A DNA stretch of 60,824 nt. Origin: a virus. The notes beneath the pieces are model-generated. The model searched no databases. It was not told where the DNA came from and saw only the letters and a program-made list of their open reading frames with translations. Within the stretch, counting starts at the first letter, position 1. Every line of letters begins with the position of its first letter. This document shows, piece after piece, positions 6,139-60,824 of the stretch. A program made the position numbers and the translations under genes. The stretch is from positions 1 to 60,824 of IMG/VR virus record IMGVR_UViG_3300027129_000008, one strand, 5' to 3'.

Positions 6139-6142
6139 AATA

Positions 6143-18551: not shown

Positions 18552-18586
18552 AAATTTGTTACAATGGTGATAAATAATTATGTGTC

Positions 18587-18656
18587 AAAAATGCCGTTGT
18601 AAACTATCTGACAGAACTTTTTGAAACTTTTTTTGTCAGGTTTTTTACAACGGCAT
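18587..18656 (-). terminator. Long nested hairpin/terminator between helicase and nrdA
   Basis: Outer 13-bp perfect arms (18591-18603 with 18644-18656) enclose an inner 6-bp stem (18608-18613 with 18634-18639). On the - strand it is followed by TTTTT. It could terminate helicase transcripts or regulate nrdA read-through. Confidence 0.6.
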
Positions 18657-38736: not shown

Positions 38737-39897
38737 TTATAATTTGTTGAGATCTTTATCAACAAGATTTGTGATGTTTATTCTCAACTTACTTATGAAT
38801 CCACTGGCTCTCAAAAGTTTGAATACAAGGTTTTCGGTGCTGTATTCTCCTCCCGAGCTTAAACCAGCTTCACGCATTTTATAGATACGTTGAACCAAGT
38901 CTTTCAATGTATCTAAATCTTGTTGTTCGACCGCTTTGTTTATCTTGGTCACCAAGTCTTTGTATTTGGTCTTTATAGCGTCTTTGTCGATCTTAACGTC
39001 TTCATACGAGGGTTTTTTTATCCACTTGTTATGAAGGATACTATAAACAGCTTGGCTACGGTTTACATCGTTAATGTCTTGTATATAAACTTCTACTGGA
39101 TGATTGTCAACACTGATATCATGTTGTTCGTTCCATTTATTTTTGTAACCGTCAACTAGTTTTTTGACCAGTTCTTTGTTTTCATCAACCTTTGAGAAGT
39201 CAATCAAAACGTGTAGATCAATATCACTGGTTGGAGTCCAATTATAACCAGCCGTGCTTCCTAAAAAGTATATGTCCTCAATTGGGGCAGTCAACTCAGT
39301 GTCTTTGTAAAAAGTGGTAGCTATTTTTAACAACTGACTGAGAACTTCTGGTTTTAAAGTTTCACCGTCCCAAATTTCTGGGTTCAAAATGCTGTTGTAT
39401 ATTCTGTATGACTCTTTGACACCCAACGTTTCTTTGAGTTTGTTGATAGTGTCTGTTGCGTTTTTGTGAAGTATACCAATGCCACCAGCCTGAATAAACT
39501 CATTGACGTTATCTTCACGGTCATCGATCAATATTGAATCTGGTGTAGCAAATTTAGCTTTGTCTTCTCTTTCGGGAACCAAGTTTTGTTTGAGTGTCAC
39601 ATTGTGATCCGACAACCACTTTTCTTTACCTTGTTTACACTCGGCATCAGTTGCATGACTTAGTATTTCCGTTGGAAATTCTTTGATAAAATTGTAGAGA
39701 ATCTTACCATCATTCATCCAAGGCATGGTTGCATAAAAATTTGGACTGTTTTTATGAACCAACTCGTATCTTTTTTCTTTACCGTGTTCTGACTCGTATG
39801 TTTCTACTGGAACTCCAAACAATCTTTCAAACTGTTTTTCCCAGTCTGTCAGAACTCCATCCATATCAACGTAAATTTTGTATTTGCTTTGAACCAT
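38737..39897 (-). CDS. HAD phosphatase - nucleotidyltransferase fusion
   Basis: 386 residues. The N-terminal domain (about 1-155) begins YVDMDGVLTDWE (Asp11, Asp13) and has ILIDDREDN (about 122), the layout of HAD 5'(3')-deoxyribonucleotidases. A second domain (about 200-330) has FLGSTAGYNWTPTSDIDLHV with GS plus DxD and later HPVEVYIQD, the catalytic pattern of the MNT/Pol-beta nucleotidyltransferase superfamily. The substrates are unknown. The two activities (nucleotide phosphate removal and nucleotidyl transfer) in one chain suggest a coupled reaction. Late motif 6 bases upstream. Confidence 0.75.
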   Translation of the reverse strand: MVQSKYKIYVDMDGVLTDWEKQFERLFGVPVETYESEHGKEKRYELVHKNSPNFYATMPWMNDGKILYNFIKEFPTEILSHATDAECKQGKEKWLSDHNVTLKQNLVPEREDKAKFATPDSILIDDREDNVNEFIQAGGIGILHKNATDTINKLKETLGVKESYRIYNSILNPEIWDGETLKPEVLSQLLKIATTFYKDTELTAPIEDIYFLGSTAGYNWTPTSDIDLHVLIDFSKVDENKELVKKLVDGYKNKWNEQHDISVDNHPVEVYIQDINDVNRSQAVYSILHNKWIKKPSYEDVKIDKDAIKTKYKDLVTKINKAVEQQDLDTLKDLVQRIYKMREAGLSSGGEYSTENLVFKLLRASGFISKLRINITNLVDKDLNKL

Positions 39898-46202: not shown

Positions 46203-46464
46203 ACATTTTTGTAATTTTGACTACAAGTTTTCCAGAGCCTTTTATGACTCTGTGATACGTTTCTTTAGGTATAAATATTGAACCCTCCATCAAACACGGA
46301 AGATTATTATCCAATTGAACCTCCCAACCACCATTATTCTCCACAACCTCAACCAAACGGTTTTCTTTATCCAAATGCCACTCTAATTCATGACTATCTA
46401 TACCAGAATCGAACTCACGAATATATTGATTGTTTCCCAAGCTTGTCTCTGTATAAGGCATCAT
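46195..46464 (-). CDS. Cupin-fold protein
   Basis: 89 residues. A single cupin-like barrel: HELEWHLDKENR (about 25-36) gives the first metal-site His pair, and FIPKETYHRVIKGSG (about 64-78) the last His. Small single-cupin proteins have many roles; here it might bind a nucleotide-sugar or metal. It starts in an ATGA overlap with the kinase gene, so it is co-translated. Confidence 0.6.
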   Translation of the reverse strand: MMPYTETSLGNNQYIREFDSGIDSHELEWHLDKENRLVEVVENNGGWEVQLDNNLPCLMEGSIFIPKETYHRVIKGSGKLVVKITKMYE

Positions 46465-47258
46465 ACATTTCTAGGACGCATTGGTTCTATTGTCCTCAGA
46501 TGCGAATCATCGTCATCAGATTGTTCTACACTGTCTACCTTCTTTACATTTTTATAGTAATTTTCAATCCATTTTCTACCAATTGGATTTTTTATAGGAC
46601 TCTTCAAAAAGTCAATCACACTTCTCAAAACACCTCTATCAATTGGTTCATTGTTCTTTGTTCGATCAACTATTCTAAAGTTGTTACGAAATATGTTTTG
46701 AAAATGACCCAAATTATTTTGACAGCTAAACCACATCTGTGATAACAAATCTTCTGGTATCTTACGAGATCTCTTCGCATTACGTTCCATTGCAACTTGT
46801 AAACTAGTGTTGACAAATATCATGTAACAATCATATCCATGTTGTTCCATAACACGTTTCTTGATTTGTATTGATTCTATACTATCACCAGTTCCATCTA
46901 TGATAAGTCCTAATTTAGCCTTTCTATACATGTCTAGTTTTTTTCTTGTGATTCGTTTTGCTTTTTCTCTAGTAGATTGAGGACCAACAGTCAATCGTTC
47001 AAACTCTTCTGGACTCAATTTACTAAAGTCTGTAGATATGTTCATATTATGAAGCATCTTCTCAAACTCGTTATCACTATTGATTACCTTCAAACCATAT
47101 CGATTTACAGATGAATTGGAAGGTAAATCAAATAACTCAGTAGCTACAGTGCTTTTTCCACTACCAGGCCCACCAGCCATAAATATACACTTGAGAGTTG
47201 ATGGATCATCGACACCCTCGGTCAATCTATGCTTTTTTAGTAGTTCAAGTAAATTCAT
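46461..47258 (-). CDS. P-loop kinase (zeta-toxin-like) with cargo-type N-terminus
   Basis: 265 residues. Walker A is GGPGSGKST (29-37), in MAGGPGSGKSTVATELF; GLIIDGTGDS (about 120) and RNAKRSRKIP (about 167) complete a zeta-toxin/PNK-type kinase core. The first 14 residues, MNLLELLKKHRLTE, match the shared N-terminal peptide of the genes to the right and end in L-T-E, a T4 gp21-like site. Late motif 10 bases upstream, inside the end of the next gene. Substrate unknown; UDP-GlcNAc or polynucleotide are possible. Confidence 0.7.
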   Translation of the reverse strand: MNLLELLKKHRLTEGVDDPSTLKCIFMAGGPGSGKSTVATELFDLPSNSSVNRYGLKVINSDNEFEKMLHNMNISTDFSKLSPEEFERLTVGPQSTREKAKRITRKKLDMYRKAKLGLIIDGTGDSIESIQIKKRVMEQHGYDCYMIFVNTSLQVAMERNAKRSRKIPEDLLSQMWFSCQNNLGHFQNIFRNNFRIVDRTKNNEPIDRGVLRSVIDFLKSPIKNPIGRKWIENYYKNVKKVDSVEQSDDDDSHLRTIEPMRPRNV

Positions 47259-48256
47259 AATGATTTGATATAAATATCAGTGTCTCTCTTCAATTCATCC
47301 TCTGGCACATTATCCAAGTTATCACCATACTTCTGTGTCCAATATTGTTTGATCTTACCCAACATTGGTCCTGGCTTTAATTGTGGAAAATTAGCCATCA
47401 ACCACTCACCACCATATTTGGATTTAACTGGGGTAAATGATTCAATCTCTTTTTGTTTATCCAACAACATCTGATACTTTTCTGGAAACAACCGCTTCAA
47501 GAAATAGTCTGGGTCACTAATCTGTTTGTGTTTATTCAAACCAATCAATGACTTTCTAATATAATCAGCACTAGGTCTACCAGCTCTAACTCTCTTACGA
47601 TCACTGTGATTCATAGTTTGACCCTTATAGTCATCGCTATCAAACATAGGACTACCACTAATAAACTTAACAACATCATCATTGTTTTGTATACTATCGT
47701 AATCACCCAATACATCACCATAACCAAGTATTTTCAAACCGTCTTTTAGATTCTTAGTAATTAGTATATCGTGATGTCTACCACTTTTATCTACATAAAT
47801 CTTTTGAAAACCTGTAGTAGCATACTTGTAACCATTTTGTCTAGCCATTACACCCAATATACCACTAAAGTCTCCTAGTGCTAAATAAGTCTTTTGTGCG
47901 TCAAAGTCATCGTCTGTATCCGCATACAGAAAGTCTACATGAACATCCTTACCCAAATCAGACTTGTAAAGAACACTATAGATATTTCCGTTACGACTAT
48001 AATCCTTTACCTTATTACCCAAATTAGATAACAACGTGTTCTTGATATCACCAGACGATCCTGTCAACACAATATCAATATCACCATGATCTTGTTTGGA
48101 TGGTAGTGATTTACTCAATTCAAACTTGCTAAAACTATTACCCAGTTGATTCTTGAGTTCGTCAAAAACACTGTTCATTTCAGATGTAGTAATTCTACTG
48201 GCTCTACTACCAAATAGTTTGCCGCCCTCTTTCAATAAATCCATTAACTTGATCAT
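47255..48256 (-). CDS. Pol-beta-type nucleotidyltransferase with cargo-type N-terminus
   Basis: 333 residues. HGDIDIVL (57-64, catalytic Asp59 and Asp61) and DVHVDFLYAD (third Asp108) define the Pol-beta nucleotidyltransferase fold. The rest is helical with a basic ADYIRKSLIGL segment. Starts MIKLMDLLKEGGKLFG, the shared N-terminal peptide with an LKE site. Its ATGA overlap with the kinase gene couples them. RNA end modification and signalling-nucleotide synthesis are possibilities; I have no basis to decide. Confidence 0.7.
   Translation of the reverse strand: MIKLMDLLKEGGKLFGSRASRITTSEMNSVFDELKNQLGNSFSKFELSKSLPSKQDHGDIDIVLTGSSGDIKNTLLSNLGNKVKDYSRNGNIYSVLYKSDLGKDVHVDFLYADTDDDFDAQKTYLALGDFSGILGVMARQNGYKYATTGFQKIYVDKSGRHHDILITKNLKDGLKILGYGDVLGDYDSIQNNDDVVKFISGSPMFDSDDYKGQTMNHSDRKRVRAGRPSADYIRKSLIGLNKHKQISDPDYFLKRLFPEKYQMLLDKQKEIESFTPVKSKYGGEWLMANFPQLKPGPMLGKIKQYWTQKYGDNLDNVPEDELKRDTDIYIKSL
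47269..47277 (-). promoter_or_regulatory. Late-type motif ATATTTATA
   Basis: 10 bases upstream of the kinase ATG, inside the 3' end of the nucleotidyltransferase gene. Confidence 0.5.
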
Positions 48257-48303
48257 AGACTATAATTAGATCCACACACTCGACTCACTGATGATTTAAT
48301 CAA

Positions 48304-50484
48304 TCATGATGTTATATAGGCCATTGTAAACGGTGTTGTGGTAGAACTTTGCGCATTTGTAACTGAATTACCAGTAATACTATAAACTTGAACATAATCA
48401 GTGCTACCATTAAAATAAATTAATAACGACAAATTCGTATTAACAACACCGGTCCCACCGTCAGACGTTAAATCAGCTCCATTTTTGCGTAAAGTTAAAT
48501 AACCTTCTCCTCCACCGCTATAAACTCTTGCTCCAGCAGATACTTGATACCATCCGGCTACAGTTGGAGTAAATCTACCCGTTGTATTATTATACCAACT
48601 GGTAGAATCCGTTACTGCGATATTATATTTAATTATTGTAGCTGCATAACCACCAGGATTTACAACACTTGTTGTTCCATATCTATAAATTGCAGTCGTT
48701 GATCCGCCGCCGCCACCACCATTTAAAGCATATGAAGCGGTTAAAGCATATGAAGCGGTTAAAGCAGATGAAGCGGCCAAAGCATAAGAACTGCTAACGG
48801 AAGCTGACGCAAAACTTGAACTAATAGAACTTGTTGCGAAAGTAGCAACATCAGCGTGACTCGAGCTTTGTATGTATTGAATAATTTCTGAATAACTAGA
48901 TGATACCATTACATTTGTATAATCCAACACATTAACATATACTCTATCAACAATCTGTCCCAGAAATTGAGAGCCTGACACAGGTTGTCCTGTGGCAGCC
49001 ATCTTTCTTATTTTTAATGATGTATTATCCAACTTTTGAACACCATAATCTGACCCAGTATCATTCAATCCTCCAACCAGAGCTACATAAGTTGTATCAT
49101 ATTGTGTATATATACTATTTGGAAATTCGATTGATTGTGGGGTAAAACTACTTGTGTATCTAGCAACACCTTTAGTAATTCTAAACTCATCCAAATATCC
49201 GAACATTGCTGTGGTTGGACTACACGTTGGACGGGAACCTATGTAAGTCGTGCCTCCTTGGTTATTTATAATTCCAGTTATGCCGGCACTCGACTCCAGA
49301 ACACCGTTTATGAACAAATAAACTGTATTATTGTCTCTGGTTACCACAACATTATACCATGTGTTTTGAGAGATTGTAGTTGTGGATGTAACACTTGTTA
49401 GTGTTGATCCCACAACAAAAGTGGCATTTATTTTATTATCTGCTTGTCTACCTATATCAAGTGTTAAAGTTGTATAAGCATTACAATCCGCTCTTCTGGA
49501 TAAAATGGGTCTATATACACCTACGTCTGAAAAATTTGCCCAAAATTCAATTGTAAAATTTGATCCCGCAAAAACAGTAGGCACGCTTGAAAATGATAGA
49601 TAATCACCGGTGCCATCGAAATATCCGCTTCCACTACCAAATTTATAAATTGATGATGTAATTTTTGTATTACCACTCCTAGTCACACTCACATTATTCG
49701 GCCCACTATCTGCAAAAGTGGTGGAATTATTAGCCCCATTAAAATGTAGTAATAAACTACAACTTGTATAATATGGATCGCCAGTTGCGTAAATCCATCT
49801 TTCTAAAACAGAAACACCCCACGCATCACCTTCCAGATTAAGACCCGTTATGATATTTTCTTGGTCCGGTCCAACCGAATATAATATTGTCTGATTCACA
49901 ATACTGCCTGTTTGTAACGACGCAGTAATAATATTATTGTAAACTGGAGCAGTTGCATACGAGGCTGTTATCGCATTGTTACTCCAACTTGCAGTTATTG
50001 GATACGTGCTACCAGTTATTAATGTTGTTCCTCCTTCACTTGCATTTAATGCATATGAAGCCGTCAACGAATATGAACTACTAATACTATTCGCAACATA
50101 ACTTGCAGTAGATGCAAAACTGGAACTTGTAGAATTATCCGCATTAACAACATAACTGCTGCTGATACTCCTACTTGCAGTTATTGGATATGTTGAACCA
50201 GTTGTCAAAAAAGAACCAGCATTAGATGCGTATGAAGCAGTCAAAGCATAACTTGCACTGACAGCACTACCACTATAATAACTAACAGCATAACTTGCTG
50301 TCGCAGCATATGAAGCGCTTCCATAGAATGTTCCACTATTATTATGCGTATAAAAATTACTCGCGCTTATTGTTGATTCATATGAAAGATTACTTCCAGA
50401 AATTATTAATTTTCTTACAGGATTAGATCCATCTTGAAAACTAATTTCTCCATCTCCAGGCGTTATGATGATATTAGTTGGCAT
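48304..50484 (-). CDS. Receptor-binding tail fibre with LamG and C1q-like domains
   Basis: 726 residues. Residues about 50-185 hold many ASYALTASYA-type repeats. A LamG/lectin jelly roll (about 245-450) is marked by LLLHFNGANNSTTFADSG, YFDGTGDYLSF, FTIEFWANF and LDEFRITKGVARY. The C-terminal ~125 residues look like a C1q/TNF-like trimeric head (NNTTGRFTPTVAGWYQVSAG). Such heads bind host glycans, so this is the best candidate adhesin. Late motif 7 bases upstream. Confidence 0.8.
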   Translation of the reverse strand: MPTNIIITPGDGEISFQDGSNPVRKLIISGSNLSYESTISASNFYTHNNSGTFYGSASYAATASYAVSYYSGSAVSASYALTASYASNAGSFLTTGSTYPITASRSISSSYVVNADNSTSSSFASTASYVANSISSSYSLTASYALNASEGGTTLITGSTYPITASWSNNAITASYATAPVYNNIITASLQTGSIVNQTILYSVGPDQENIITGLNLEGDAWGVSVLERWIYATGDPYYTSCSLLLHFNGANNSTTFADSGPNNVSVTRSGNTKITSSIYKFGSGSGYFDGTGDYLSFSSVPTVFAGSNFTIEFWANFSDVGVYRPILSRRADCNAYTTLTLDIGRQADNKINATFVVGSTLTSVTSTTTISQNTWYNVVVTRDNNTVYLFINGVLESSAGITGIINNQGGTTYIGSRPTCSPTTAMFGYLDEFRITKGVARYTSSFTPQSIEFPNSIYTQYDTTYVALVGGLNDTGSDYGVQKLDNTSLKIRKMAATGQPVSGSQFLGQIVDRVYVNVLDYTNVMVSSSYSEIIQYIQSSSHADVATFATSSISSSFASASVSSSYALAASSALTASYALTASYALNGGGGGGSTTAIYRYGTTSVVNPGGYAATIIKYNIAVTDSTSWYNNTTGRFTPTVAGWYQVSAGARVYSGGGEGYLTLRKNGADLTSDGGTGVVNTNLSLLIYFNGSTDYVQVYSITGNSVTNAQSSTTTPFTMAYITS

Positions 50485-50491
50485 AGTTTAT

Positions 50492-50500
50492 TATAAATAT
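50492..50500 (-). promoter_or_regulatory. Late-type motif ATATTTATA
   Basis: 7 bases upstream of the ATG at 50484. Confidence 0.55.
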
Positions 50501-50516
50501 TAGAAAATTGCTATGC

Positions 50517-50534
50517 CCACAGTTAATACTGCGG
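50517..50534 (-). terminator. Weak hairpin after the 167-residue gene
   Basis: 7-bp stem with one G-T pair (50517-50523 with 50528-50534); no good T-run. Confidence 0.3.
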
Positions 50535-50540
50535 TTTAAT

Positions 50541-51044
50541 TTACAATTTGTTATATGTCTTTTCAAACTCAACTTTAGCAATACGATAATAACCAGTATT
50601 AGCTGGGTCTTTTACCAAATAATCGCCTGGCTTAATAATCATGTCTTCTCCCCATGGAGCTTTAAATGTTACTGGTTCACCTGTATACAAAGCAACTTGT
50701 CTTGGAGATTGTTCTGGGTAAATATCACCACCAACATTACCAGTATATAACTTAGGCAATTTAGCTGCCTTGATAACATAATTCTCACCAGTAGCACCAC
50801 TGAAAATAATATCACCAACATCAGCAGTGTTTTGTGTTTCTTTACCATCACTGGTTGTAGTAACTACTGGTTGTTGAATTGTTGACTTGGTATATGTCAT
50901 TGGAGGCATAGAACCAGGCTTACCTCCGTCAATGTATTTATAAACCAACTTTTGTTTGGTCACTGGCTTGAATGCCAATGTGGATGCAATTTGATTGATA
51001 TCTGCATTAGCAACTTCACTGAGAATGTCTTTTAGTTTAATCAT
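50541..51044 (-). CDS. Hypothetical protein with cargo-type N-terminus
   Basis: 167 residues. Starts MIKLKDILSEVANAD (site LSE after residue 10), then a beta-rich body with GDIIFSGATGENYVIKAAKL and ending PGDYLVKD, RIAKVEFEKTY. Not recognised. Its ATG overlaps the 2H phosphoesterase stop by ATGA, so it is co-translated. Confidence 0.6.
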   Translation of the reverse strand: MIKLKDILSEVANADINQIASTLAFKPVTKQKLVYKYIDGGKPGSMPPMTYTKSTIQQPVVTTTSDGKETQNTADVGDIIFSGATGENYVIKAAKLPKLYTGNVGGDIYPEQSPRQVALYTGEPVTFKAPWGEDMIIKPGDYLVKDPANTGYYRIAKVEFEKTYNKL

Positions 51045-51574
51045 AGGTTTATAAAGTATTTGCCTTTTGGCCCACTATACTTGAATCTGGTAATTGGTAA
51101 AGATATATTTAGATTGTCTTTGATGTGTGGAAAGCTACCCTTCTTCACATAAGCTAATGTCATGTGGGGTTTGTAGTCTGGGTAACCGTCAGTATTTGGA
51201 TAACCATCACATCTACGTCTCAATTCGGTCAATATAGGACTTTTTTCAACTTCAAACTTGACCACATCAAATTTATCATTCTCAAACAAATTGAGTGCTT
51301 TCAATACCACATTAAATGGCTTTACACCTTGAAGGATTCTAGCCACATCTGTTCTACCAATATCTGGTTCAAATCCATACTTGAGAGTCACATGAGGTTC
51401 TTCATCATAACCATATGTAGGATCATTAGGATCAGTATATAGTATTTGCGGTGGTATTGCGGTTCTACCAAGTCTAATTACATGTGGTCCATAAGTAGGA
51501 CTTACATGTGCCATTAAACAACCTTTTTCAACGTGTCTATTTTCTACGAGTAACATATTTTCTAATAATTTCAC
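51041..51574 (-). CDS. 2H phosphoesterase (2'-5' RNA ligase / Acb1-like fold) with cargo-type N-terminus
   Basis: 177 residues. The two catalytic HxT motifs are EPHVTLKYGFEP (His61, Thr63) and KPHMTLAYVKKG (His137, Thr139). T4 anti-CBASS Acb1 is of this superfamily. The N-terminus MKLLENMLLVENRH matches the shared peptide (site LVE). It overlaps the upstream gene by 38 bases. Possible roles: degrading cyclic oligonucleotide signals, or RNA 2',3' end repair. Confidence 0.75.
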   Translation of the reverse strand: MKLLENMLLVENRHVEKGCLMAHVSPTYGPHVIRLGRTAIPPQILYTDPNDPTYGYDEEPHVTLKYGFEPDIGRTDVARILQGVKPFNVVLKALNLFENDKFDVVKFEVEKSPILTELRRRCDGYPNTDGYPDYKPHMTLAYVKKGSFPHIKDNLNISLPITRFKYSGPKGKYFINL

Positions 51575-52808
51575 GAATCAAATGTTCCTTCTTTACCAAT
51601 TGGTCCAAAGGCACACCTCTATACTTTTGTCTTAGTTGCGCAATTGGCATACCATATTGTTTTTCAGCTTGAGCAATCAGATTGTATCTATCTTGTTTCT
51701 CTTTTTCTAAAGATGCCAATTTACGAGCAACTACAGTAGCAACAGTATTCTTAATGTTATCATTATAATACTTCTCACCCGATACCAAAAGATCATTCAA
51801 TATTTTAATTTCTACTTCTAACCCATTTACTTCTTTTTCTAAATTATCCTTTTCAGCAGGCGTAAGTTTCGCTCCTGTTGTATGAAGTTTTCCTCTCTTT
51901 TCAATAAACTCTTGTGTCTTATCATCAATTACTTTTTCCAAACTAGGTTGTTGTTGTATTTTCGTAAGACCCCAAGAAGGATAATCAAATTCACTACCAA
52001 CCGGTGTATTGGACAAATCACTATCAGTTACCTTTATTGTTACATTATTACCTTTAATAGCCGTAACATCAGCTCTTATACCAAGTCCTAGGATTTTTAT
52101 TTTGTCACCTACTTTGAATTCAACATCTGCTTTATCCGTAACAGATGGTTTAGGTGGAGGAGTTTCTTTCCTAGGTTCTTCTTTGTCATACAGTTCATTG
52201 TATGACCTTATTTTGCTACCAATTTCATACAAACACTCAGTTGGATTATATCCATTAAACTCTATGACTTTTTCATATTGATCTTTGTATGGAATTACCT
52301 TATCTTTATTATAATCCCAGAATGTTACAATGATAGCTTTACCACTCGGGATTGTGCTTTCAATTTGAAGATCCAAATTTTCTGGCGGTTTACCATCTGT
52401 ATTGTCTACCTCAAAGATTCTACCTTTCATGATAGGATCTGAATATGCGCCCATTCTACCCAACCCCTTTAGAATATTTTCCAAATCCAAATGACCACCA
52501 CCATTATTACTAGCCTTTAATCGTTTGATACCTTTTTGGGCCCAATAATCCAATTGTTCTCTCTTATTAGAATCATACTTTATTTCCGGAGCGTCTTCTA
52601 ATTCTTTGATTTCTTTTAATACATCACTATCATCTGAGTAAAATTCTTTCTTGTTGTCGCTATATCCAAATATTGACTTTTTACCACTCTTGTCGTCTTT
52701 ATAAACAAAAAAAGCACATCTGTTGGCCGGAGAAGTGTAGTTATACAACTTTCTCTTGTAACTAACAGTGTCAGGATTTTCCACCAAAATATCAATTAGT
52801 TTAACCAT
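51537..52808 (-). CDS. Large hypothetical protein with cargo-type N-terminus
   Basis: 423 residues. Starts MVKLIDILVENPDTV (site LVE). The middle holds a hydrophilic Pro-rich linker (about 208-225), and residues 228-285 form a small beta domain (FKVGDKIKILGLGIRADVTA) like an SH3-type barrel. The C-terminal 120 residues are a coiled coil ending REIIRKYVTRRK. Not recognised. It overlaps the 2H phosphoesterase gene. Confidence 0.55.
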   Translation of the reverse strand: MVKLIDILVENPDTVSYKRKLYNYTSPANRCAFFVYKDDKSGKKSIFGYSDNKKEFYSDDSDVLKEIKELEDAPEIKYDSNKREQLDYWAQKGIKRLKASNNGGGHLDLENILKGLGRMGAYSDPIMKGRIFEVDNTDGKPPENLDLQIESTIPSGKAIIVTFWDYNKDKVIPYKDQYEKVIEFNGYNPTECLYEIGSKIRSYNELYDKEEPRKETPPPKPSVTDKADVEFKVGDKIKILGLGIRADVTAIKGNNVTIKVTDSDLSNTPVGSEFDYPSWGLTKIQQQPSLEKVIDDKTQEFIEKRGKLHTTGAKLTPAEKDNLEKEVNGLEVEIKILNDLLVSGEKYYNDNIKNTVATVVARKLASLEKEKQDRYNLIAQAEKQYGMPIAQLRQKYRGVPLDQLVKKEHLIREIIRKYVTRRK

Positions 52809-52813
52809 AAATT

Positions 52814-53416
52814 TTACCAGTATTTTCCTTTACCCTTGTTTCCTAAACTACGAATACGATGACTACGGCAACTCCAGTAACCAGCTGTAGTTCTATCTTT
52901 CTTTTGACTACATCTGTGACGTGCGGCAAAACTTTTACGACGAGCCTTGTTACCAGCTCTACTTCTCATATTTGGATCACCAAAAGTTACCTTCTTCACA
53001 TTGCCGTTTTTTGATTTGACATACACGGCGTATTTCTTAGGGCCGCCTGGAGTTCTGAATGGTCTATTGAGATGAACAGTGCGACCTCTGTGTTTCAACT
53101 CCATGATCAAATCTTCTTCGACTTCAATAGGAGCATCCAAATAAACCTCTCGACCCTCAAATACTTCCTTCTTACCAAGATCACTTTCGACCAATTCAGC
53201 ATCTGCATCACACAACTCTATTAGGTTGTCATAATACAATTTACGAACTTCATCAATTAATTCAAAGTAAGATTCACTGTAGGTTCGAAAAATGTTCTCA
53301 CACAAAGGTATGTTCTTTGACAAATGATATCGTAAATTGGAAGTTGTCTCTACTTCTTCCAACAAGTTCATTGAGCAAAGCGAGTCGCTCTCTATCAGGT
53401 CGTTAAGCTTGATCAT
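52814..53416 (-). CDS. Basic Cys-containing protein with cargo-type N-terminus
   Basis: 200 residues. Starts MIKLNDLIESDSLCS (site LIE), with a second LLEE at 18-21. The C-terminal 70 residues are very basic: VKSKNGNVKKVTFGDPNMRSR, then KSFAARHRCSQKKDRTTAGY and WSCRSHR, a two-Cys basic pattern I have seen in T4-like head-associated proteins. It probably binds DNA. Late motif 4 bases upstream. Confidence 0.65.
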   Translation of the reverse strand: MIKLNDLIESDSLCSMNLLEEVETTSNLRYHLSKNIPLCENIFRTYSESYFELIDEVRKLYYDNLIELCDADAELVESDLGKKEVFEGREVYLDAPIEVEEDLIMELKHRGRTVHLNRPFRTPGGPKKYAVYVKSKNGNVKKVTFGDPNMRSRAGNKARRKSFAARHRCSQKKDRTTAGYWSCRSHRIRSLGNKGKGKYW

Positions 53417-53420
53417 ATGA

Positions 53421-53429
53421 TATAAATAT
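53421..53429 (-). promoter_or_regulatory. Late-type motif ATATTTATA
   Basis: 4 bases upstream of the ATG at 53416. Confidence 0.55.
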
Positions 53430-54355
53430 TATCCGTATTTGTTTATCGTTTTTAATTCGTTAATCAATATCTTTTCCTCGGCATCCAAGTTCTTATCTAG
53501 TTCAACAAATACGTCATCCAATGACATCTTGGTGCTTGAACGTTTCTGAATGGTTTTTAGACTTTCAAGAGTATCAACCACAGTATCCAATGTGTTTTTA
53601 TGTTTGTTAAACGTAGGTAACTCAATATGATTACTGAATTGTAAAGCTTTTGGAGCAACACCTTTGAGAAGATTGATGATCGAAGCAACAATGTGTTCAA
53701 ATATACCAAATATAGCTCCGGCAATTGGGTTTGTTGCTGCCAAGAACCTCAATACCATAAAACATATCAAGAATATCAATATGCCAGTTACACCTATAGT
53801 AACAAATCGTTTCAAACCATACATTACACCACCAAGTCCCATCCAACTATTTACTTCGTCAACGGTCACTTGTAATGCATCCGCTTTCTTTGCAACTTGT
53901 GATGCTTGTGTTTCGAGACCTTTTATTTGTTCTTCATAAACGTCTTCGATCTCTTTCTGTTTTACTTGAAGTGCTAGAATCTCATCGTCTCTTTGTTTTA
54001 GAAGTTTAGCACCCTTGTCTTTTTCTTTCTGAACTTCACTATTTAAAAGATCTGTAAGTTCCTTGATTTTGTTCAATTCATCAATATTAGGATTACCAGT
54101 AATGTTCAATACCCTATTGTTAAAGTCTATAGCAGTCTTGACTTGAACTGGAGGGTTGGTGACCGCCTTTAACGAGTAATCAGTTCCAGATGCCAAAGTA
54201 GCTACTTGTTGTAGTTTCTCACCCTCATTCTTTGCCAATTCAACTCGGGTCTCAGCAAGACCATCTTTTGTTTTTTGAACCTTTTCTACATTGGATGTTT
54301 TGCATCCTCCGACCAATAAAAAAGAAGCCAAAAATAGTGTAAATAGTTTTCTCAT
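53429..54355 (-). CDS. Lipoprotein with coiled coil and transmembrane helices
   Basis: 308 residues. N-terminal MRKLFTLFLASFLLVGGC is a type II signal with the lipobox Cys at residue 18. Residues about 25-170 are coiled coil; residues about 185-240 include one or two transmembrane helices (VTIGVTGILIFLICFMVLRFL, then AIFGIFEHIVASIINLLKG). A lipid anchor plus inner TM could span the periplasm, as spanins do, but spanins are shorter. Function unclear. Late motif 3 bases upstream. Confidence 0.65.
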   Translation of the reverse strand: MRKLFTLFLASFLLVGGCKTSNVEKVQKTKDGLAETRVELAKNEGEKLQQVATLASGTDYSLKAVTNPPVQVKTAIDFNNRVLNITGNPNIDELNKIKELTDLLNSEVQKEKDKGAKLLKQRDDEILALQVKQKEIEDVYEEQIKGLETQASQVAKKADALQVTVDEVNSWMGLGGVMYGLKRFVTIGVTGILIFLICFMVLRFLAATNPIAGAIFGIFEHIVASIINLLKGVAPKALQFSNHIELPTFNKHKNTLDTVVDTLESLKTIQKRSSTKMSLDDVFVELDKNLDAEEKILINELKTINKYG

Positions 54356-54358
54356 ACC

Positions 54359-54367
54359 TATAAATAT
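54359..54367 (-). promoter_or_regulatory. Late-type motif ATATTTATA
   Basis: 3 bases upstream of the ATG at 54355. Confidence 0.55.
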
Positions 54368-54421
54368 TGAATCGGTGTATAAAAACTTGTGTATTTCACC
54401 ACACTCATTTATGATATTAAC

Positions 54422-55195
54422 ATGTCAAAATATTGTGACACATCGCTGATATATCTAAAATCGATCAACAAATCGGTCGCACGTAATTTGATCGAAAAGA
54501 ACCACTATACACACAAGTGGACCAGTTGTTCTGTAGCATATGGTGTGTATACCAAAGATTATGTTGAAAGCACATTCTTTGGAGGATTCGATAGTAGATT
54601 GATTGGTGTTCTTGTATATGGTAATGCTGTAGGACGCAATTCGAGCACTAGTATAACTCCGTTACTAACCAACGATAACGTGTTTGAATTGACCAGATTG
54701 TGGATTGAAGACGGTCACGGTAGTAACATAGAAAGTTACTGTATAGCAGAAAGTTTCAGACTGTTGAATGTGGAGTTTCCTCAAATCAAGTGTATCTTGA
54801 GTTATGCTGACAGCGAAGTTGGACATGCCGGAACCATTTATCAAGCAACCGGCTTCTTATATCAAGGCGACAATTATGTTGATATCGCATTGATGCCAAA
54901 TTACAGTGTTAGTTTGGTTGGACCACCCAACTATGATTGGATACACAGTAGAAACGTCTATGGTAGATGGAAAACACACAATGTGGACAAACTTAAGGAA
55001 CGTATAGGAAAAACGTTCTGGCGCAAACGTGAGAGTGGCAAACACCGTTATATTAAGTTCATCAGCAACAAGATTGAAAACAAACGGTTGTCAAAGTCAC
55101 TGATACATAAACTGTTACCCTATCCAAAATCAACATCGTTCACAGAACAAATACAAGAAGTTGTAGTGGGTAATAACAACGAGTTTTTCCAATAA
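54422..55195 (+). CDS. Mom-like DNA modification protein (GNAT fold)
   Basis: 257 residues from ATG 54422 (a start at 54389 is upstream and less likely). Conserved Mom features seen: IEKNHYTHKWTSCSVAYGVY, then LVYGNAVGRNSSTSITPLL, VFELTRLWIEDGHGSN and ILSYADSEVGHAGTIYQATG. Phage Mu Mom converts adenine to N6-(carbamoylmethyl)adenine and blocks restriction. It is the only + gene between capsid and lipoprotein genes. The last codons are next to the capsid terminator. Confidence 0.8.
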   Translation: MSKYCDTSLIYLKSINKSVARNLIEKNHYTHKWTSCSVAYGVYTKDYVESTFFGGFDSRLIGVLVYGNAVGRNSSTSITPLLTNDNVFELTRLWIEDGHGSNIESYCIAESFRLLNVEFPQIKCILSYADSEVGHAGTIYQATGFLYQGDNYVDIALMPNYSVSLVGPPNYDWIHSRNVYGRWKTHNVDKLKERIGKTFWRKRESGKHRYIKFISNKIENKRLSKSLIHKLLPYPKSTSFTEQIQEVVVGNNNEFFQ

Positions 55196-55225
55196 AAAAC
55201 CCACCAGCCTTTCGACTGGTGGGTT
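55191..55225 (-). terminator. Rho-independent terminator of the capsid operon
   Basis: 10-bp stem (55198-55207 with 55216-55225) followed on the - strand by TTTTTT. It ends the major capsid transcript. Confidence 0.85.
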
Positions 55226-55251
55226 CGTTATCTAATTTAGACTAATCCAAA

Positions 55252-56982
55252 TTATACGGTGTCGAGATCGGCGATCAAGACCTTACCGTAGAACTCAGGA
55301 CGCACTACCTTCTTAGCGTAGCGAGTCATCACACCACGGCGTGGAGTGAAGTTCACTGGATCATAGACCAATGGAGTTTGGATGAGTGGGATGTATGGAG
55401 CATACACAGCACCAGTCTCCAAGAAGTTGCTACCACGGAAACCAACGAGGATAGCATTATCGGTCATGTATGGGTTCTTGTAAACTTGGAAGCGACTTGC
55501 GAAGCTACCAACACGGCTTACACCCATTGCGAACTTAGCTTGGTCACCGTCAGTGTTCACAACATATCCTGGGATTGACTCCAAGATGGTTGCTACGTCT
55601 GGCGAACATACCAAGAAGTTTGCGCCACCACGGAGAGTCAATTGGTGAATCTTGTTAGAGACCTTTTGGATCTTGTTACCAAGAGTTTGGAACCAAGTGC
55701 TCTTTACGTAAGCGGTGCGGTTTGGTGAAGCGTTAACAACACGGGTGAACGAAGCCACATCGGTGGTGTTGTTTACAGTCTTGGTGAACTCAGTTCCGAT
55801 TTGGGCAGACCAAGCTTCGGTAGTTACACCAGTGACAGACTCGTTCAACATGTCGAGGATTTCGAGGTCGATTTCCATCGAAACATACTCACTCAAGAGA
55901 GCAGTAAGTTCTGCTTCTGCATCAATAGAGTGATATGCGTTCAAGTCTTGAGCCAATTCTGGGGTCCAGACAGCCTTCAACTTACGGGTCTTAGCAACGA
56001 TTGGTTCGCTCTTAAGTTCCAAGTTGACTTCTGGGATCTTGATGTCAGTGCCGATAGATTGGGTATAGACGTTGTTAGCAACACCAGAACCTTCACCAGC
56101 GGTCTTACCGTCTTCGAAGTCACCACGGAGGTTGTCCGAAGGTTGAACTGTGTAGTTCAAACGTGCGGTAGTAGTAGGAGCAGCTGCACCAGCAGATTGA
56201 CTTACGAACAAGTTAATTTGATAGTATGGGTTTGCCAAGCTACCAGTGTTAACTGCGGTTGCGTAAGTGTTCAATACAGTGTAAGCTACACCAGAACTCT
56301 TTTGAACACCGAAAGAACGAACTGCGTTCAAGTCAACGTTCCAGAGGTTACCGGAACCTGGCTTTGCTTCGGTGTTGTCGTCGAGGTTAAAGGTAATCTT
56401 GTAGACACCTGGAACTTCGTTAGAACCGTTAACGGAAGCACTGAAAGCAGAATCGAATTGTAGATCGTTCCAGCTTGCGGTAGCTACGAGAACAGTTGCG
56501 TTTGAGCTAGAGACGGTGCGCTCAGAATAAGCATAGCGTCCTTGGCCATAGAGACCATTTACAGCAGCATCAGTAGAACCGAGCTTCTTTTGGTTACCAC
56601 CGAACAAGCTTTCGCCTGCAGTGTGTCCCAATTGAGTGCCGGAACCATACTTGAAGTCGAGATAGAAGATAAGACCGCTTGGGAGGTTCATTGGTTGAAC
56701 CGAAACGAACTCCTTAGCAGCGATCTCAGCAAATACACGACGGACCAATGGAAGAGCAACGCCTGCCCATTGTTCACTGTTTGCACTTGTTCCAGTTGTT
56801 GAAGCTTCGTCCAACAATTGCTTTGCTTGGTTTTCCAAGAGGATCGACATGTGTGCCTTTTCAACACCGGTGGTGTTTTCGAGAAGGCCTGTCTTTTCCC
56901 ACTTGTTTTGAAGACCACGGGTTTCAGCCATTAGCTTAGCCTGTGGATTCATATTATTTGTTAGTAGACTCTTTACGTCCAT
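55252..56982 (-). CDS. Major capsid protein (gp23-like)
   Basis: 576 residues. WAGVALPLVRRVFAEIAAKEF, then QPMNLPSGLIFYLDFKYG is the hallmark of T4 gp23. The N-terminal ~65 residues hold LxE sites (GLLE-N, ILLE-N, LLDE-A) where the gp21-type protease removes the propeptide. FLVCSPDVATILESIPGY and YAPYIPLIQTPLVYDP are C-terminal signatures. Codon use is strongly biased, consistent with very high expression. SD AGGA; no late motif upstream, so it is translated from the scaffold transcript. Confidence 0.95.
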   Translation of the reverse strand: MDVKSLLTNNMNPQAKLMAETRGLQNKWEKTGLLENTTGVEKAHMSILLENQAKQLLDEASTTGTSANSEQWAGVALPLVRRVFAEIAAKEFVSVQPMNLPSGLIFYLDFKYGSGTQLGHTAGESLFGGNQKKLGSTDAAVNGLYGQGRYAYSERTVSSSNATVLVATASWNDLQFDSAFSASVNGSNEVPGVYKITFNLDDNTEAKPGSGNLWNVDLNAVRSFGVQKSSGVAYTVLNTYATAVNTGSLANPYYQINLFVSQSAGAAAPTTTARLNYTVQPSDNLRGDFEDGKTAGEGSGVANNVYTQSIGTDIKIPEVNLELKSEPIVAKTRKLKAVWTPELAQDLNAYHSIDAEAELTALLSEYVSMEIDLEILDMLNESVTGVTTEAWSAQIGTEFTKTVNNTTDVASFTRVVNASPNRTAYVKSTWFQTLGNKIQKVSNKIHQLTLRGGANFLVCSPDVATILESIPGYVVNTDGDQAKFAMGVSRVGSFASRFQVYKNPYMTDNAILVGFRGSNFLETGAVYAPYIPLIQTPLVYDPVNFTPRRGVMTRYAKKVVRPEFYGKVLIADLDTV

Positions 56983-57028
56983 AATATTATTTTCCTATCT
57001 TTTGGTTTGTTAATTACTCGCAAACAAA

Positions 57029-58126
57029 TTACTTCTTGATTCCTGCGAGCTTTTGGAATCTTGAAGCCATCACATCAGCTTGAGGTTCTACAATCGTAGA
57101 GTCAGGCTTTGTGCTGGATACTGGTTTGCTTGCCAAACCTTCGGTGATAGTTGAGACAGTCGCATTTGACTTTTTCTTGGCGACTGATCCACCGGCATTA
57201 AATGATTCGGCCAAAACTGTGTATGCCAATTTGATTTCACGCAATGTCTTGGTGAGATCAAATGTGTTGATGACCTTCAACTTTTGGTCTTCGGTCAAAT
57301 TCTTACCCTTGAAGATCTTGTTGGTATAAAGCAACTTAGCATTCAAGAGATTGGTTTCTTCAAGAACACCCTTCAAATACTTCACAGTATCTTGATGTTC
57401 CTTCAATTGATTCTTCAATGCTTCGTTTTCTTCATTGATAGCAACAAGTGCTTCTGCCATTTCTTCAGCAGTCACTTCTTCTTCATAAGTGTCTTCTTCC
57501 ATTGGAGAAGGAACTTGTCCAGCAACTGGTGCTACTGGAGCTTGAGGAGCCATAGCGGCAGCTGGTGCTGCTACTGCAGCTGCTGGATCAGCAACTGGGG
57601 CAACTGGAGCAGCTGGTGCTTGACCATCTTCTTCCAATTCAGCGAGAAGTTCGTCAAGATCAACAACTTCTTCTTCAGAAGCTTGTTCTTCTTCAGCTAC
57701 AACTTCATGCTTCTCTTCCTCTTCTTCCTCACCGTCTTCCTTCTTACCTTCTTGTTCCAACTCAGCAAGAATCTCATCCAACTCTTCGCTGGTGATTTCT
57801 TCGCCTTCTTCAAGAGTTGCGTCGAACTCTTGCTTTCCAGCTGGAGTGGTGTTTTTCTTTGCTGCAGTAGAAGGTTGGGTTGGGTGTTGCTTAGAAGCAA
57901 TATTGCTGTCATCCTTACCGATGCCAGAAGATGCAAGCTTCTCTTCGATCTTGCCTTCTTCTTCCTTACCTTCGTTTTCTTGTTCTGACTCTTCCTTGAG
58001 CTTCTCTGCGAACATTTCTTTCATGCTCTTTGCGAAGTTTTCCTCAAGAAAGGTTTTTGCATTAGCAATTGCAGTTTCACGAACTGCCTTTGCGTCTGCG
58101 ATGCTTTCCTTTAATAGATCGCTCAT
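57029..58126 (-). CDS. Prohead scaffold/core protein (gp22-like)
   Basis: 365 residues from ATG 58126 (an earlier start at 58177 lacks the SD). Very acidic, with Glu/Lys coiled coils, an Ala/Pro-rich linker (about 190-235: APAAPVAPVADPAAAV) and many LxE sites (ILAELEQ, LLAELEE). T4 gp22 is likewise acidic, helical and digested by gp21. The last residues (MASRFQKLAGIKK) end in a basic tail. SD GGAAAGG. Its late motif lies about 96 bases upstream. Confidence 0.8.
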   Translation of the reverse strand: MSDLLKESIADAKAVRETAIANAKTFLEENFAKSMKEMFAEKLKEESEQENEGKEEEGKIEEKLASSGIGKDDSNIASKQHPTQPSTAAKKNTTPAGKQEFDATLEEGEEITSEELDEILAELEQEGKKEDGEEEEEEKHEVVAEEEQASEEEVVDLDELLAELEEDGQAPAAPVAPVADPAAAVAAPAAAMAPQAPVAPVAGQVPSPMEEDTYEEEVTAEEMAEALVAINEENEALKNQLKEHQDTVKYLKGVLEETNLLNAKLLYTNKIFKGKNLTEDQKLKVINTFDLTKTLREIKLAYTVLAESFNAGGSVAKKKSNATVSTITEGLASKPVSSTKPDSTIVEPQADVMASRFQKLAGIKK

Positions 58127-58222
58127 ATTAATTTTACCTTTCCTATGTTGTTTTGTGAAGTTATTGGAGAACTCCAAAGAAGATTTAAACTCAGTGGCAT
58201 CAAAGACATTGACGCATTTGTT

Positions 58223-58231
58223 AATAAATAT
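58223..58231 (-). promoter_or_regulatory. Late-type motif ATATTTATT with long leader
   Basis: About 96 bases upstream of the scaffold ATG, so it is not part of the start region. This argues for a promoter rather than a translation signal. Confidence 0.55.
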
Positions 58232-58262
58232 AATTTAAATTTGGAAAATGACAATTTTTTTG

Positions 58263-58271
58263 ATATTTATA
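58263..58271 (+). promoter_or_regulatory. Late-type motif ATATTTATA (+ strand)
   Basis: 5 bases upstream of the ATG at 58277; divergent from the motif at 58223, 31 bases away. Confidence 0.55.
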
Positions 58272-58276
58272 GATGT

Positions 58277-58885
58277 ATGCCAGCAAAATCTGAAAAACAA
58301 GCACGATACTTTAGACTCGTAAGAGCAGTTCAAAAAGGTGATGTTCCTGCAAAGGACGTATCTAAGGACTTGAGAAAGACTGCGAAAAGTATGTCACCAA
58401 AGGCTGTAAAAGATTTCACCAAGTTGAAAGAGTTACTAAAGAATTTAAGTGAATCTGAATTCAGTTCTGCAAAGATGCAAGAAGTTCCAAATAAAACATT
58501 GGATGATGTATTGAGAGAAAACTCTGGTGTGAAGTTTAACAAAGAAGAACTTCTAACATTCCAAAACAAACAAAATGGTTTTGGTGGATTTGGTAAAGCA
58601 AATTTTGTTCACAAAAAGAGCACCAACGAAATCAAAGCAAATATCACTAGTAACGAATCAAACAAAGATTATGTGTTCAAGAAGCTAGTGAATAATCAAA
58701 ACCCAGGCTTATACAATTACGGTTGCTTTATTGGTATCACACCATCCAAACAAAGTGATAACCCAGAAGATAACAAAGAAAAAGTAGTATACATGTTGAG
58801 CAGTATCTTTGATGATGATGGTGGTGAAGAAAAAAACAAAATATTAGCAGACTTCATTGATAGAATTAATTCATATGGACTATAA
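58277..58885 (+). CDS. DUF3008-like protein
   Basis: 202 residues from ATG 58277; longer frames upstream are not supported. The N-terminal ~50 residues follow DUF3008: MPAKSEKQARYFRLV, then SKDLRKTAKSMSPKAVKDFTKLKE. The rest (about 60-202) is unrecognised, with KNFNKEEL-like helices and a C-terminal DDDGGEE acidic stretch. Preceded by a late motif. It overlaps the next + gene by 11 bases. Confidence 0.6.
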   Translation: MPAKSEKQARYFRLVRAVQKGDVPAKDVSKDLRKTAKSMSPKAVKDFTKLKELLKNLSESEFSSAKMQEVPNKTLDDVLRENSGVKFNKEELLTFQNKQNGFGGFGKANFVHKKSTNEIKANITSNESNKDYVFKKLVNNQNPGLYNYGCFIGITPSKQSDNPEDNKEKVVYMLSSIFDDDGGEEKNKILADFIDRINSYGL

Positions 58886-59234
58886 AAACTTATATGCTCA
58901 AGTTAAATTGGGCAATTTCCTAAACAAGGGCGGAGACGAAACAGATTCTCCAAAATACAAGTTGATTGACATTGATCACCCAAATGGTTGGAGCTTCAAT
59001 GAAATTGAGACCCTTGGTGATATGGGATTCAAAATCGACAATGACACTGATATGGTGTGTGAAGTAGAAGTGCCTACTTTAGAAATGATGGAAGAAAAAG
59101 TTCCAGTCAAGGTTTATAAAAACGAAGACGGATATGTCCTTGAGACTACCCGTCGCCATGTTTTTGAAACTTTTAAGAAGATGATCGAATTCGTTGATTC
59201 GATCCCAACAGATCCCAAACTAAAAGCTAAGTGA
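58875..59234 (+). CDS. Hypothetical acidic protein
   Basis: 119 residues; ATG 58875 overlaps the preceding gene by 11 bases. MDYKNLYAQVKLGNFLNKGGDE, then DIDHPNGWSFNEIETLGDMGF, a compact acidic alpha/beta protein. Not recognised. Confidence 0.5.
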   Translation: MDYKNLYAQVKLGNFLNKGGDETDSPKYKLIDIDHPNGWSFNEIETLGDMGFKIDNDTDMVCEVEVPTLEMMEEKVPVKVYKNEDGYVLETTRRHVFETFKKMIEFVDSIPTDPKLKAK

Positions 59235-59236
59235 TC

Positions 59237-59401
59237 TCACCTTTGTGTTGATCGAAGCATGGTCTGTGTCTTAAACGCAGACCAATATACTTTACCAATA
59301 ACAGCTAATGTAGTTATAACCGCCAAGATGTTTCTGTGGTCTACAATCCAATTTCCTACACCATAAGTCCAACACCAGGCTTCAAGCAAAAACATTTTCA
59401 T
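59237..59401 (-). CDS. Small membrane protein
   Basis: 54 residues (ATG 59401): a helical start (MKMFLLEAWCWTYGVGNWIV), then RNILAVITTLAVIGKVYWSAF as a single transmembrane segment and a short basic tail. It lies 7 bases after the stop of the 171-residue gene and stops just before the convergent + gene. The SD is weak. Not recognised; could be a small lysis or membrane protein. Confidence 0.5.
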   Translation of the reverse strand: MKMFLLEAWCWTYGVGNWIVDHRNILAVITTLAVIGKVYWSAFKTQTMLRSTQR

Positions 59402-59408
59402 ATCAATC

Positions 59409-59924
59409 TTACTTCTGTGATTGATAAGGTGGTTGTTGATGTGGTTGTGTAACTGGTTGTGCGCCAGGCATCTCAGAGTTTTCTAAAGCATTGATACTTA
59501 CTGAGTCTGGTCTACCTTGAACTTGATAAGCTTGTGGAGTTTCGTTGACTGGATCAGCAATCTCAAAATAACGTTCCAACTTCAAACCAATTTCTTCATA
59601 AAGCATTTCAAGAGTATGTTCTACACCCTTAATCTTGTTTGCTTCTTCATACAATTTAGCAGCAAGTTTCTTGACTTCCTTCATGTCACGTTCGACCATC
59701 TTTGCTTCCATCCACTCACCACACTCCTTGATAGCATAACGTTCAGCCAAATTGACTGCTTCCATAATCTTAGAAGCGGTAGAATATACACAATCAGCTT
59801 TGAGACTCTTACGATATTCGTTATAAGCCTTTACTGTTTCACGAAGTTTGACCTTCTCTTCTTTTGTAAGAGGAGAATAAGCGGTTTCTGTGGAATTCTC
59901 TACTAGATGTCTTAGCTTTATCAT
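59409..59924 (-). CDS. Helical protein with cargo-type N-terminus
   Basis: 171 residues from ATG 59924; TTG 59930 is the alternative. Starts MIKLRHLVENSTET, the shared peptide (site LVE), then a long helical body with several KxxE segments and an unstructured Gln/Pro-rich end (PGAQPVTQPHQQPP). Late motif 4 bases upstream. Not recognised. Confidence 0.6.
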   Translation of the reverse strand: MIKLRHLVENSTETAYSPLTKEEKVKLRETVKAYNEYRKSLKADCVYSTASKIMEAVNLAERYAIKECGEWMEAKMVERDMKEVKKLAAKLYEEANKIKGVEHTLEMLYEEIGLKLERYFEIADPVNETPQAYQVQGRPDSVSINALENSEMPGAQPVTQPHQQPPYQSQK

Positions 59925-59928
59925 ATAC

Positions 59929-59937
59929 AATAAATAT
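59929..59937 (-). promoter_or_regulatory. Late-type motif ATATTTATT
   Basis: 4 bases upstream of the ATG at 59924. Confidence 0.55.
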
Positions 59938-60666: not shown

Positions 60667-60824
60667 TTACAACTCCGAGATGATATCATGAATGATCTTC
60701 TCAATATTAGAATAAGGATTGATGATTCTATTTCCAGAAGGATTTACACTTTCAGTGATCTTTCCTTGTGGATACATGAATGCACCTTGAGTAGAAGGAT
60801 TACTTACAAAATCAAATGCGATCA
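60667..60824 (-). CDS. C-terminal end of a gene (partial)
   Basis: The frame is open from the window's right edge to a stop at 60667-60669. Visible residues: FDFVSNPSTQGAFMYPQGKI, then a short SVNPSGN and a helical end. Directly upstream of the methyltransferase on the - strand, 5 bases apart. It resembles the C-terminus of glycan-modification enzymes, but it is too short to name. Confidence 0.5.
   Translation of the reverse strand, partial: IAFDFVSNPSTQGAFMYPQGKITESVNPSGNRIINPYSNIEKIIHDIISEL

Follow-up and report, generated by a model that had tools for sequence, protein, structure and literature searches.

An N-terminal leader resembling the T4 capsid-targeting sequence on seven unrelated proteins of an uncultured phage, and its probable use in loading the head

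The original work on the capsid targeting of internal proteins in bacteriophage T4 is reportedly that of Mullaney and Black in 1996. A T4 review describes the first 10 residues of the internal protein IPIII as sufficient for packaging; residues 4 and 7 of this capsid-targeting sequence (CTS) serve mainly in targeting and residues 8 and 10 in processing, with gp21 cutting after L/I-x-E (PMC9026906). The same review raises the possibility of T4-like phages loading various proteins by means of a CTS (PMC9026906), and the T-even internal proteins have been described as a highly diverse set sharing a conserved CTS (PMC3012670). Seven proteins with a comparable N-terminus are encoded by the stretch of DNA considered here, referred to as the window, a 60,824-base fragment (positions 1 to 60,824 of IMG/VR record IMGVR_UViG_3300027129_000008) from a phage whose major capsid protein is of T4 type. 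It had originally been predicted that these proteins share a start of the MIKLxDLLxE type, diverge completely behind it, and are packaged in the head, cut and injected with the DNA. Judged by known CTS biology and by its closely similar length, spacing and key positions, the leader is very probably a CTS of the T4 kind.

The predicted starts of the seven genes (47258, 48256, 51044, 51574, 52808, 53416 and 59924, all on the minus strand) were each verified in the window. Three leaders fit both the formula, applied as a strict regular expression, and the T4 arrangement of hydrophobic residues at positions 4, 7 and 8 followed by Glu10: MIKLMDLLKE (48227-48256) on a probable nucleotidyltransferase (47255-48256), MIKLKDILSE (51015-51044) on a protein of unassigned function with a weak PGDYG match (50541-51044), and MVKLIDILVE (52779-52808) on a 423-residue protein, likewise without an assigned function (51537-52808). 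With a slack of about one residue in the spacing, six of the seven fit. The additional three are MIKLNDLIE (53390-53416) on a protein with a basic C-terminal domain encoded near the capsid gene (52814-53416; phrog_7595, 6.7e-16) and MIKLRHLVE (59898-59924) on a protein encoded between the protease and methyltransferase genes and the scaffold gene (59409-59924), both with Glu at position 9, and VKLLENMLLVE (51542-51574), with Glu at position 11, on a 2H phosphoesterase of the LigT/CPDase/Acb1 fold (51041-51574), whose gene opens with GTG. The start at 59924 is an inner ATG within a TTG-started open reading frame (ORF) beginning at 59930. The seventh protein, a P-loop kinase (AAA_33/zeta-toxin-like; 46461-47258), begins with MNLLELLKKHRLTE (codons 47217-47258), with a predicted cut after E14. 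The shared formula was therefore only partly confirmed, since its exact form fits three proteins and the other four deviate. A complete [LI]-x-E by residue 14 is found in all seven, against 5 of the 54 other window ORFs tested, and one of these five is the scaffold protein read from an inner ATG. The claimed divergence held: past residue 14, five of the seven proteins form five separate BLAST clusters, and the kinase and the 2H protein, which lay outside that BLAST set, each match another Pfam family.

Stretches of T4 were fetched and 13 of its genes translated for comparison of their N-termini, giving MKTYQEFIAE for IPII and IPIII, MAKINELLRE for gp24 and MELITELFDE for Alt. The T4 key positions 4, 7, 8 and 10 are all among the conserved positions of MIKLxDLLxE, and the likeness to the T4 internal proteins and Alt is closer than had been claimed, extending to the decamer itself. 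A pattern built from T4 (M, two free positions, a hydrophobic residue, two free, two hydrophobic, one free, Glu) is matched by 3 of the 61 window ORFs (in 500 shuffles, 0.14 on average and never more than 2) and is enriched in 18 relatives, where it is matched by 40 of 1104 ORFs (shuffle mean 2.45, maximum 7), four of these relatives' contigs having been analysed without their last 335 to 3,248 bases. After clustering of 2403 ORFs into 816 groups, 26 groups matched (mean 2.37, maximum 8 in 1000 shuffles). The starting position of [LI]xE in the 816 groups peaked at residue 8 (28 groups), followed by residue 10 (26 groups), with every other position up to residue 60 at 20 groups or fewer.

The leader is thus proposed, with a probability of roughly 0.86, to act as a T4-kind CTS in scaffold docking, gp21-type cleavage, head packaging and the ejection of enzymes with the DNA. 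A hydrophobic N-terminus of 9-14 residues would dock each protein to the scaffold core in the growing prohead, where the gp21-type protease of the phage would cleave after L/I-x-E and release the mature protein inside the head, and DNA packing around it would follow. On infection, the enzymes of the cargo at least (kinase, nucleotidyltransferase and 2H phosphoesterase) would exit with the DNA and act in the new host ahead of phage gene expression. The proposal draws on features read in the DNA, namely the leader, its match to the T4 CTS, a protease gene, conserved cut-site motifs and wide use on unrelated proteins. From these, the packaging and gp21 cleavage of the leader proteins appear strongly supported, and we infer the docking partner, the actual cleavage, virion presence, injection and the host function.

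The leader was found widely outside the window, in the 18 relatives and in environmental phages. A degenerate DNA pattern for MIK[LF]KD[LF][LF]xE, which was designed for Leu (its YTN codons also read Phe), found at least 120 stretches in IMG/VR, compared with five for a control with the same codons in another order. Contigs of bacterial and archaeal genomes (257 Gb) gave 13 matches, of which four (L394, L398, L400 and L405) open an ORF of at least 90 residues with a stop close upstream. Among the matches listed for 120 IMG/VR loci, 127 of 130 have an in-frame stop no more than 40 codons upstream and hence sit at gene-start-like places. This position, together with the near-constant codon of Lys5 (AAA in 75 of 78 distinct cargos), would also be expected of a nucleic-acid signal, such as a translation start or mRNA leader, instead of a peptide signal. 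Against this, synonymous codons occur at Ile2, Lys3, Leu4, Asp6, Leu8 and Glu10 across 87 matches (78 distinct cargos, from the first 80 loci), codon 9 is free, and the seven window genes differ in the 20 bases that precede them. The synonymous variation indicates conservation at the level of the peptide and not of the DNA, and a nucleic-acid signal is considered extremely improbable.

Behind the leader, 125 cargo proteins of at least 45 residues, again among the matches listed, form 58 clusters without similarity between them (BLASTP, 1e-3); distant kinship between some of them is nevertheless possible, as two have a NUDIX protein as representative. Recent duplication or fusion could have spread a functionless peptide by descent, and the three nearly identical leaders in a row in one phage (L037) would suit such an origin; the absence of BLAST similarity among 58 clusters and the retention of the peptide across synonymous change make it hardly credible. 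Among the other ORFs of the listed IMG/VR motif loci, 63 of 1104 carry a T4-type leader, compared with 3.2 expected. Random control loci also show an excess (16 of 729 ORFs, with 1.5 expected), so T4-type leaders are a common feature of phage contigs in general. Control loci L327, L321, L346 and L328 have different forms of it, namely MATWKxILTE (twice in one contig), MKTFREFLEE, MKRFRQFIRE and MKTLKQFLME. Both MKTFREFLEE and MATWKNILTE resemble T4's own leaders, and the variety suggests lineage-specific tags.

Proposed cleavage of the leader would require a protease, and a search for a gp21-like gene, one of the checks named with the original prediction, located it. The last 51 residues of a gp21-type S77 prohead protease, cut by the contig end, are encoded at 60667-60822 (minus strand) and are identical to the end of the protein encoded at 5708-6316 in the near-identical contig L002. 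A Pfam S77 search of the window itself returned no match because only this C-terminal end is present; the complete protease of L002 matches PF03420 (2.3e-31) and phrog_207 (4.2e-54). With the L002 protein as query, matches were found in all 29 related records, comprising three cultured phages and 26 IMG/VR contigs, of which two are near-identical to the window. The L-x-E sites attributed to the capsid and scaffold proteins were likewise present. A gp22-like scaffold gene (57029-58126, minus strand), which immediately precedes the capsid gene in the T4 manner, starts MSDLLKE/S (first seven codons, 58106-58126); this N-terminus is conserved in relatives, and the family match is weak (phrog_24981, 0.0057). 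For the major capsid protein gp23 (55252-56982, minus strand; phrog_138, 7e-70), a gp21 cut is predicted after LLDE59, which would release a propeptide encoded at 56806-56982. Its L57-D-E59 aligns with FLTE/A of T4 gp23, a site at which 66 of 68 aligned capsid proteins have L/I-x-E. In one cluster of 10 contigs, the capsid protein has a leader-like start of its own, MSDIKSLL[TS]E. The window capsid protein shares approximately 51% identity with its counterparts in Flavobacterium phage immuto and Microcystis phage Mel-JY01.

Further cut-site motifs are found at domain boundaries within cargo families. In a first count of the kinase family, 15 distinct contexts before the domain start included exactly [LI]xE in 12; a wider recount of 20 contexts found Glu directly before the domain, with a hydrophobic residue two positions before this Glu, in all 20, and exactly [LI]xE in 17. 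One of these contexts (L218) has a stop four residues upstream and is uninformative on the leader, and the start of another (L444) is ambiguous; in the others, leader length is 9 to 92 residues when counting begins at the first start codon. The kinase encoded at L187:6242-7228 has a MIKLKDLLYE leader, approximately 80 extra residues, and then an ISE/GVNDP boundary and the kinase domain. In the frame of another kinase relative (L226:7703-8479, minus strand), the opening residues resemble the end of an intein (...VHN) and run straight into the P-loop SGK, and hence the P-loop may be an intein site. In the nucleotidyltransferase family, LKE precedes GGKLFGSR in the window, and a longer leader ending in LTE precedes the same GGKLFGSR in L087; similarly, a relative of the 423-residue protein (L432) starts MISLNRLLIE and continues with the same NPDTV. 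Structure models of two proteins gave a leader region with pLDDT below 50 (residues 1-26 in a family named after L198, and 1-12 in the 2H protein), with the folded domain next. The boundary motifs and the low-pLDDT leaders are compatible with a removable leader, though short of proving that it is cut. An amphipathic helix holding the proteins at the host membrane or elsewhere could account for the hydrophobic spacing of the leader, and T4 proheads have been described to start at the membrane (PMC9026906). Such an anchor would leave unexplained both the conserved Glu after L/I-x and the constant hydrophobic-x-E boundary of the kinases, which is kept despite leaders of 9 to 92 residues, and it is accordingly rated very improbable.

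A number of observations weigh against the leader being a T4-kind CTS that is cut and packaged. The kinase leader, with its Glu at position 14, is longer than the others and falls outside the decamer fit. Enrichment of the T4-built pattern is modest in the cultured relatives immuto (4 of 198 ORFs; mean 0.51, maximum 4), which encodes a MIKLIDLLTE protein at 24569-24994, and Mel-JY01 (4 of 221; mean 0.68, maximum 5), and there is none in RM378 (1 of 142 ORFs, with 0.47 expected). The reordered control of the IMG/VR scan was a single codon order. Of 80 motif contigs (from 120 loci), 36 have an S77 protease, compared with 15 of 50 control contigs, the latter taken from 80 listed loci of 86 stretches found with a random 15-mer. 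This 15-mer was a poor control: a single conserved gene family accounts for 20 of the 80 loci checked and for 11 of the 15 S77-positive control contigs, and without its 14 members among the 50 the value is 4 of 36. Within the 50 control contigs, which are fragments, T4-exact leaders were not commoner in those with S77 (4 of 161 ORFs, compared with 11 of 318; p 0.78).

How many of the seven proteins would be injected is a separate matter. Targeting and cutting, as predicted, are well supported by the T4 CTS match, the protease, the capsid L-x-E and the cargo boundaries; injection of all seven exceeds the evidence. The proteins encoded at 59409-59924 and 52814-53416 adjoin the scaffold and capsid genes, and among 84 contigs examined, many of which are short, their CTS-like starts recur in 25 and 21, respectively. 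These two may belong to the head core and not to the injected effectors. Extended to the leader in general, it would be a scaffold-docking peptide of structural core proteins, which are cut and for the most part not injected, and the similar N-terminal sites in the scaffold protein, capsid protein and protease fit with this. Cargo that varies between contigs and includes a CCA-adding enzyme, NUDIX hydrolases, kinases and 2H phosphoesterases is not readily seen as building a core, and the general form of this explanation is regarded as unlikely.

The enzyme assignments differ in firmness. The kinase label stood (Pfam AAA_33, 1.7e-13; Zeta_toxin, 1.3e-10), as did that of the 2H phosphoesterase (PF13563, 3.4e-13), in which both HxT motifs, H61xT63 and H137xT139, are invariant in seven sequences. 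A Foldseek search with its AlphaFold2 model matched CPDase (1e-6), Acb1 (5e-6) and LigT (6e-6), and a distant relative in L262 starts MIKLKDLLTE. Identity as an Acb1 anti-CBASS nuclease was considered and not established; PF23474 scored 24.5 bits, below its cut-off of 27, and the LigT and CPDase structures match about equally. The nucleotidyltransferase label is probable, as it draws on phrog_24943 ("DNA polymerase", 3.5e-8) and a GDIDIVL stretch recognized by eye, but there was no Pfam match. Searches of PDB sequences with the kinase and the nucleotidyltransferase gave nothing useful. The protein starting at 51044 matched PF14083 at 3e-4, under the family cut-off.

Cargo in the relatives includes a CCA-adding enzyme starting MITFKNLLVE (PolyA_pol, 8.4e-21) and a deoxyribonucleotidase starting MIYLQDILKE (NT5C, 1.8e-8); the window member of the latter family (38737-39897; phrog_2643, 4.8e-30) starts without a leader. 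Among 45 cluster representatives from the first 80 loci, two were NUDIX proteins, one a phage lysozyme and one a kinase, with several weak matches, and at least 29 of the 45 had no Pfam match at 0.01. ADP-ribosyltransferases are suspected but unproved among the cargo of relatives, the matches (ART-PolyVal, 1e-4; Tox-ART-HYD1, 5e-4; DRAT, 0.005) all lying under the Pfam cut-off. The L198 family, with a MIKLKDLL leader, was modelled from an alignment of 10 members, out of 12 that the first 80 loci yielded (pLDDT 83). Its model had no Foldseek match at E 0.001; in a second structural comparison, DarT and CteC chains spanned most of the alpha/beta part (Z 4.4-4.8), and unrelated helical matches scored higher (Z 6.0-6.3).

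The head genes of L002 are ordered terminase, portal, two unknowns, protease, methyltransferase (PF13578, 1.9e-11), the homolog of the protein at 59409-59924, two opposite-strand genes, scaffold and capsid protein. Compared with the order 20-67-68-21-22-23 of the T4 record, the framework is common to both, with extra genes here. The two opposite-strand genes lie at 58145-58885 and 58857-59234 (plus strand) in the window, and occur likewise in L002, L003, L007 and L008. The protein at 59409-59924 was considered as a stand-in for T4 gp67/gp68 and rejected, since in L002 it lies after the protease gene and T4 67 and 68 precede 21. The gp67/gp68 place, just before the protease gene, is occupied by a 369-residue protein (L002:4597-5706) that starts MKKLLKE/S from an inner ATG and had no PHROG or Pfam match. 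In L054 (G014:C1, ~16939-18651) and L033 (G010:C1, 74418-76124), the protease gene is one frame of approximately 600 codons, split around an insert of approximately 1.1 kb; the insert of L054 follows GELDHPE and is intein-like in appearance. Beside the window capsid gene, on the opposite strand, is a Mom-like DNA modification gene (54389-55195, plus strand; phrog_1384, 2.9e-43), and within the head-gene block a further gene (53429-54355, minus strand) encodes a protein with a lipoprotein-like start (MRKLFTLFLASFLLVGGC).

The biology of the T4 CTS, including its conservation on diverse T-even internal proteins, was already known. The apparent novelty lies in a consensus specific to the lineage, in how many and what kinds of cargo bear it, and in the use of the leader in an uncultured group related to immuto and Mel-JY01. 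On balance, and by a narrow preference, MIKLxDLLxE may be viewed as the local form of a virion-export tag of the T4 superfamily, comparable to a secretion signal and mixed onto enzymes needed at host time zero, with lineage-specific leaders co-evolving with the scaffold. T4 IPI, IPII and IPIII have each been described to block a different GmrSD restriction enzyme (PMC12373910), and a list of head-borne proteins would therefore point to anti-defence functions. If the proposal is true, the injected effector repertoires of uncultured phages could be read from genomes, with the 58 cargo clusters among the matches listed as a beginning, and a 10-residue tag readable from sequence would predict head cargo without virion proteomics. 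Leader-borne 2H phosphoesterases could destroy defence signals ahead of phage gene expression, and the repertoire would further include kinases, NUDIX hydrolases, a CCA-adding enzyme and possible ADP-ribosyltransferases, a range exceeding the small inhibitors of the T4 type. In the accessible parts of the open-licence literature, no survey of CTS-tagged cargo outside the T-even group was found, and searches naming immuto or Mel-JY01 found no virion proteomics for either phage.

Among other systems in which head proteins are targeted or cut, DarB of P1 has a short N-terminus that directs a defence-related protein into the head, its first 30 residues being described as enough; the signal is longer than nine residues, however, and P1 is described as a phage without a separate scaffold (PMC9024508). 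In phiKZ and SPN3US, head proteins are cut by a distant relative of gp21, but the cut motif given is S/A-x-E or A-x-E (PMC9026906), and the N-terminal propeptides described for SPN3US are 20-254 residues in length, unlike the short leaders here (PMC10052503). Closer likenesses are found in T4 itself. MAKINELLRE of gp24 comes nearest to MIKLxDLLxE among the 13 translated T4 N-termini, and this vertex protein is cut by gp21 (PMC9026906; note in the T4 record), but it is a shell protein and no internal protein. Alt, an injected ADP-ribosyltransferase, provides a precedent for enzyme cargo with a comparable N-terminus, MELITELFDE, and for the possible ART-like cargo of the relatives, although the ART assignments here are weak. 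The internal proteins IPI-IPIII differ in their sequence, MKTYQEFIAE as opposed to a MIKLxDLLxE consensus, and in having far fewer cargo clusters than found here, where several carry enzyme domains and most of the window leader genes are located between the capsid and neck genes. The two agree in an N-terminal leader of 10 residues, the L/I-x-E motif, an S77 protease, unrelated bodies behind the leader and, exactly in three of the seven window proteins, the key positions 4, 7, 8 and 10.

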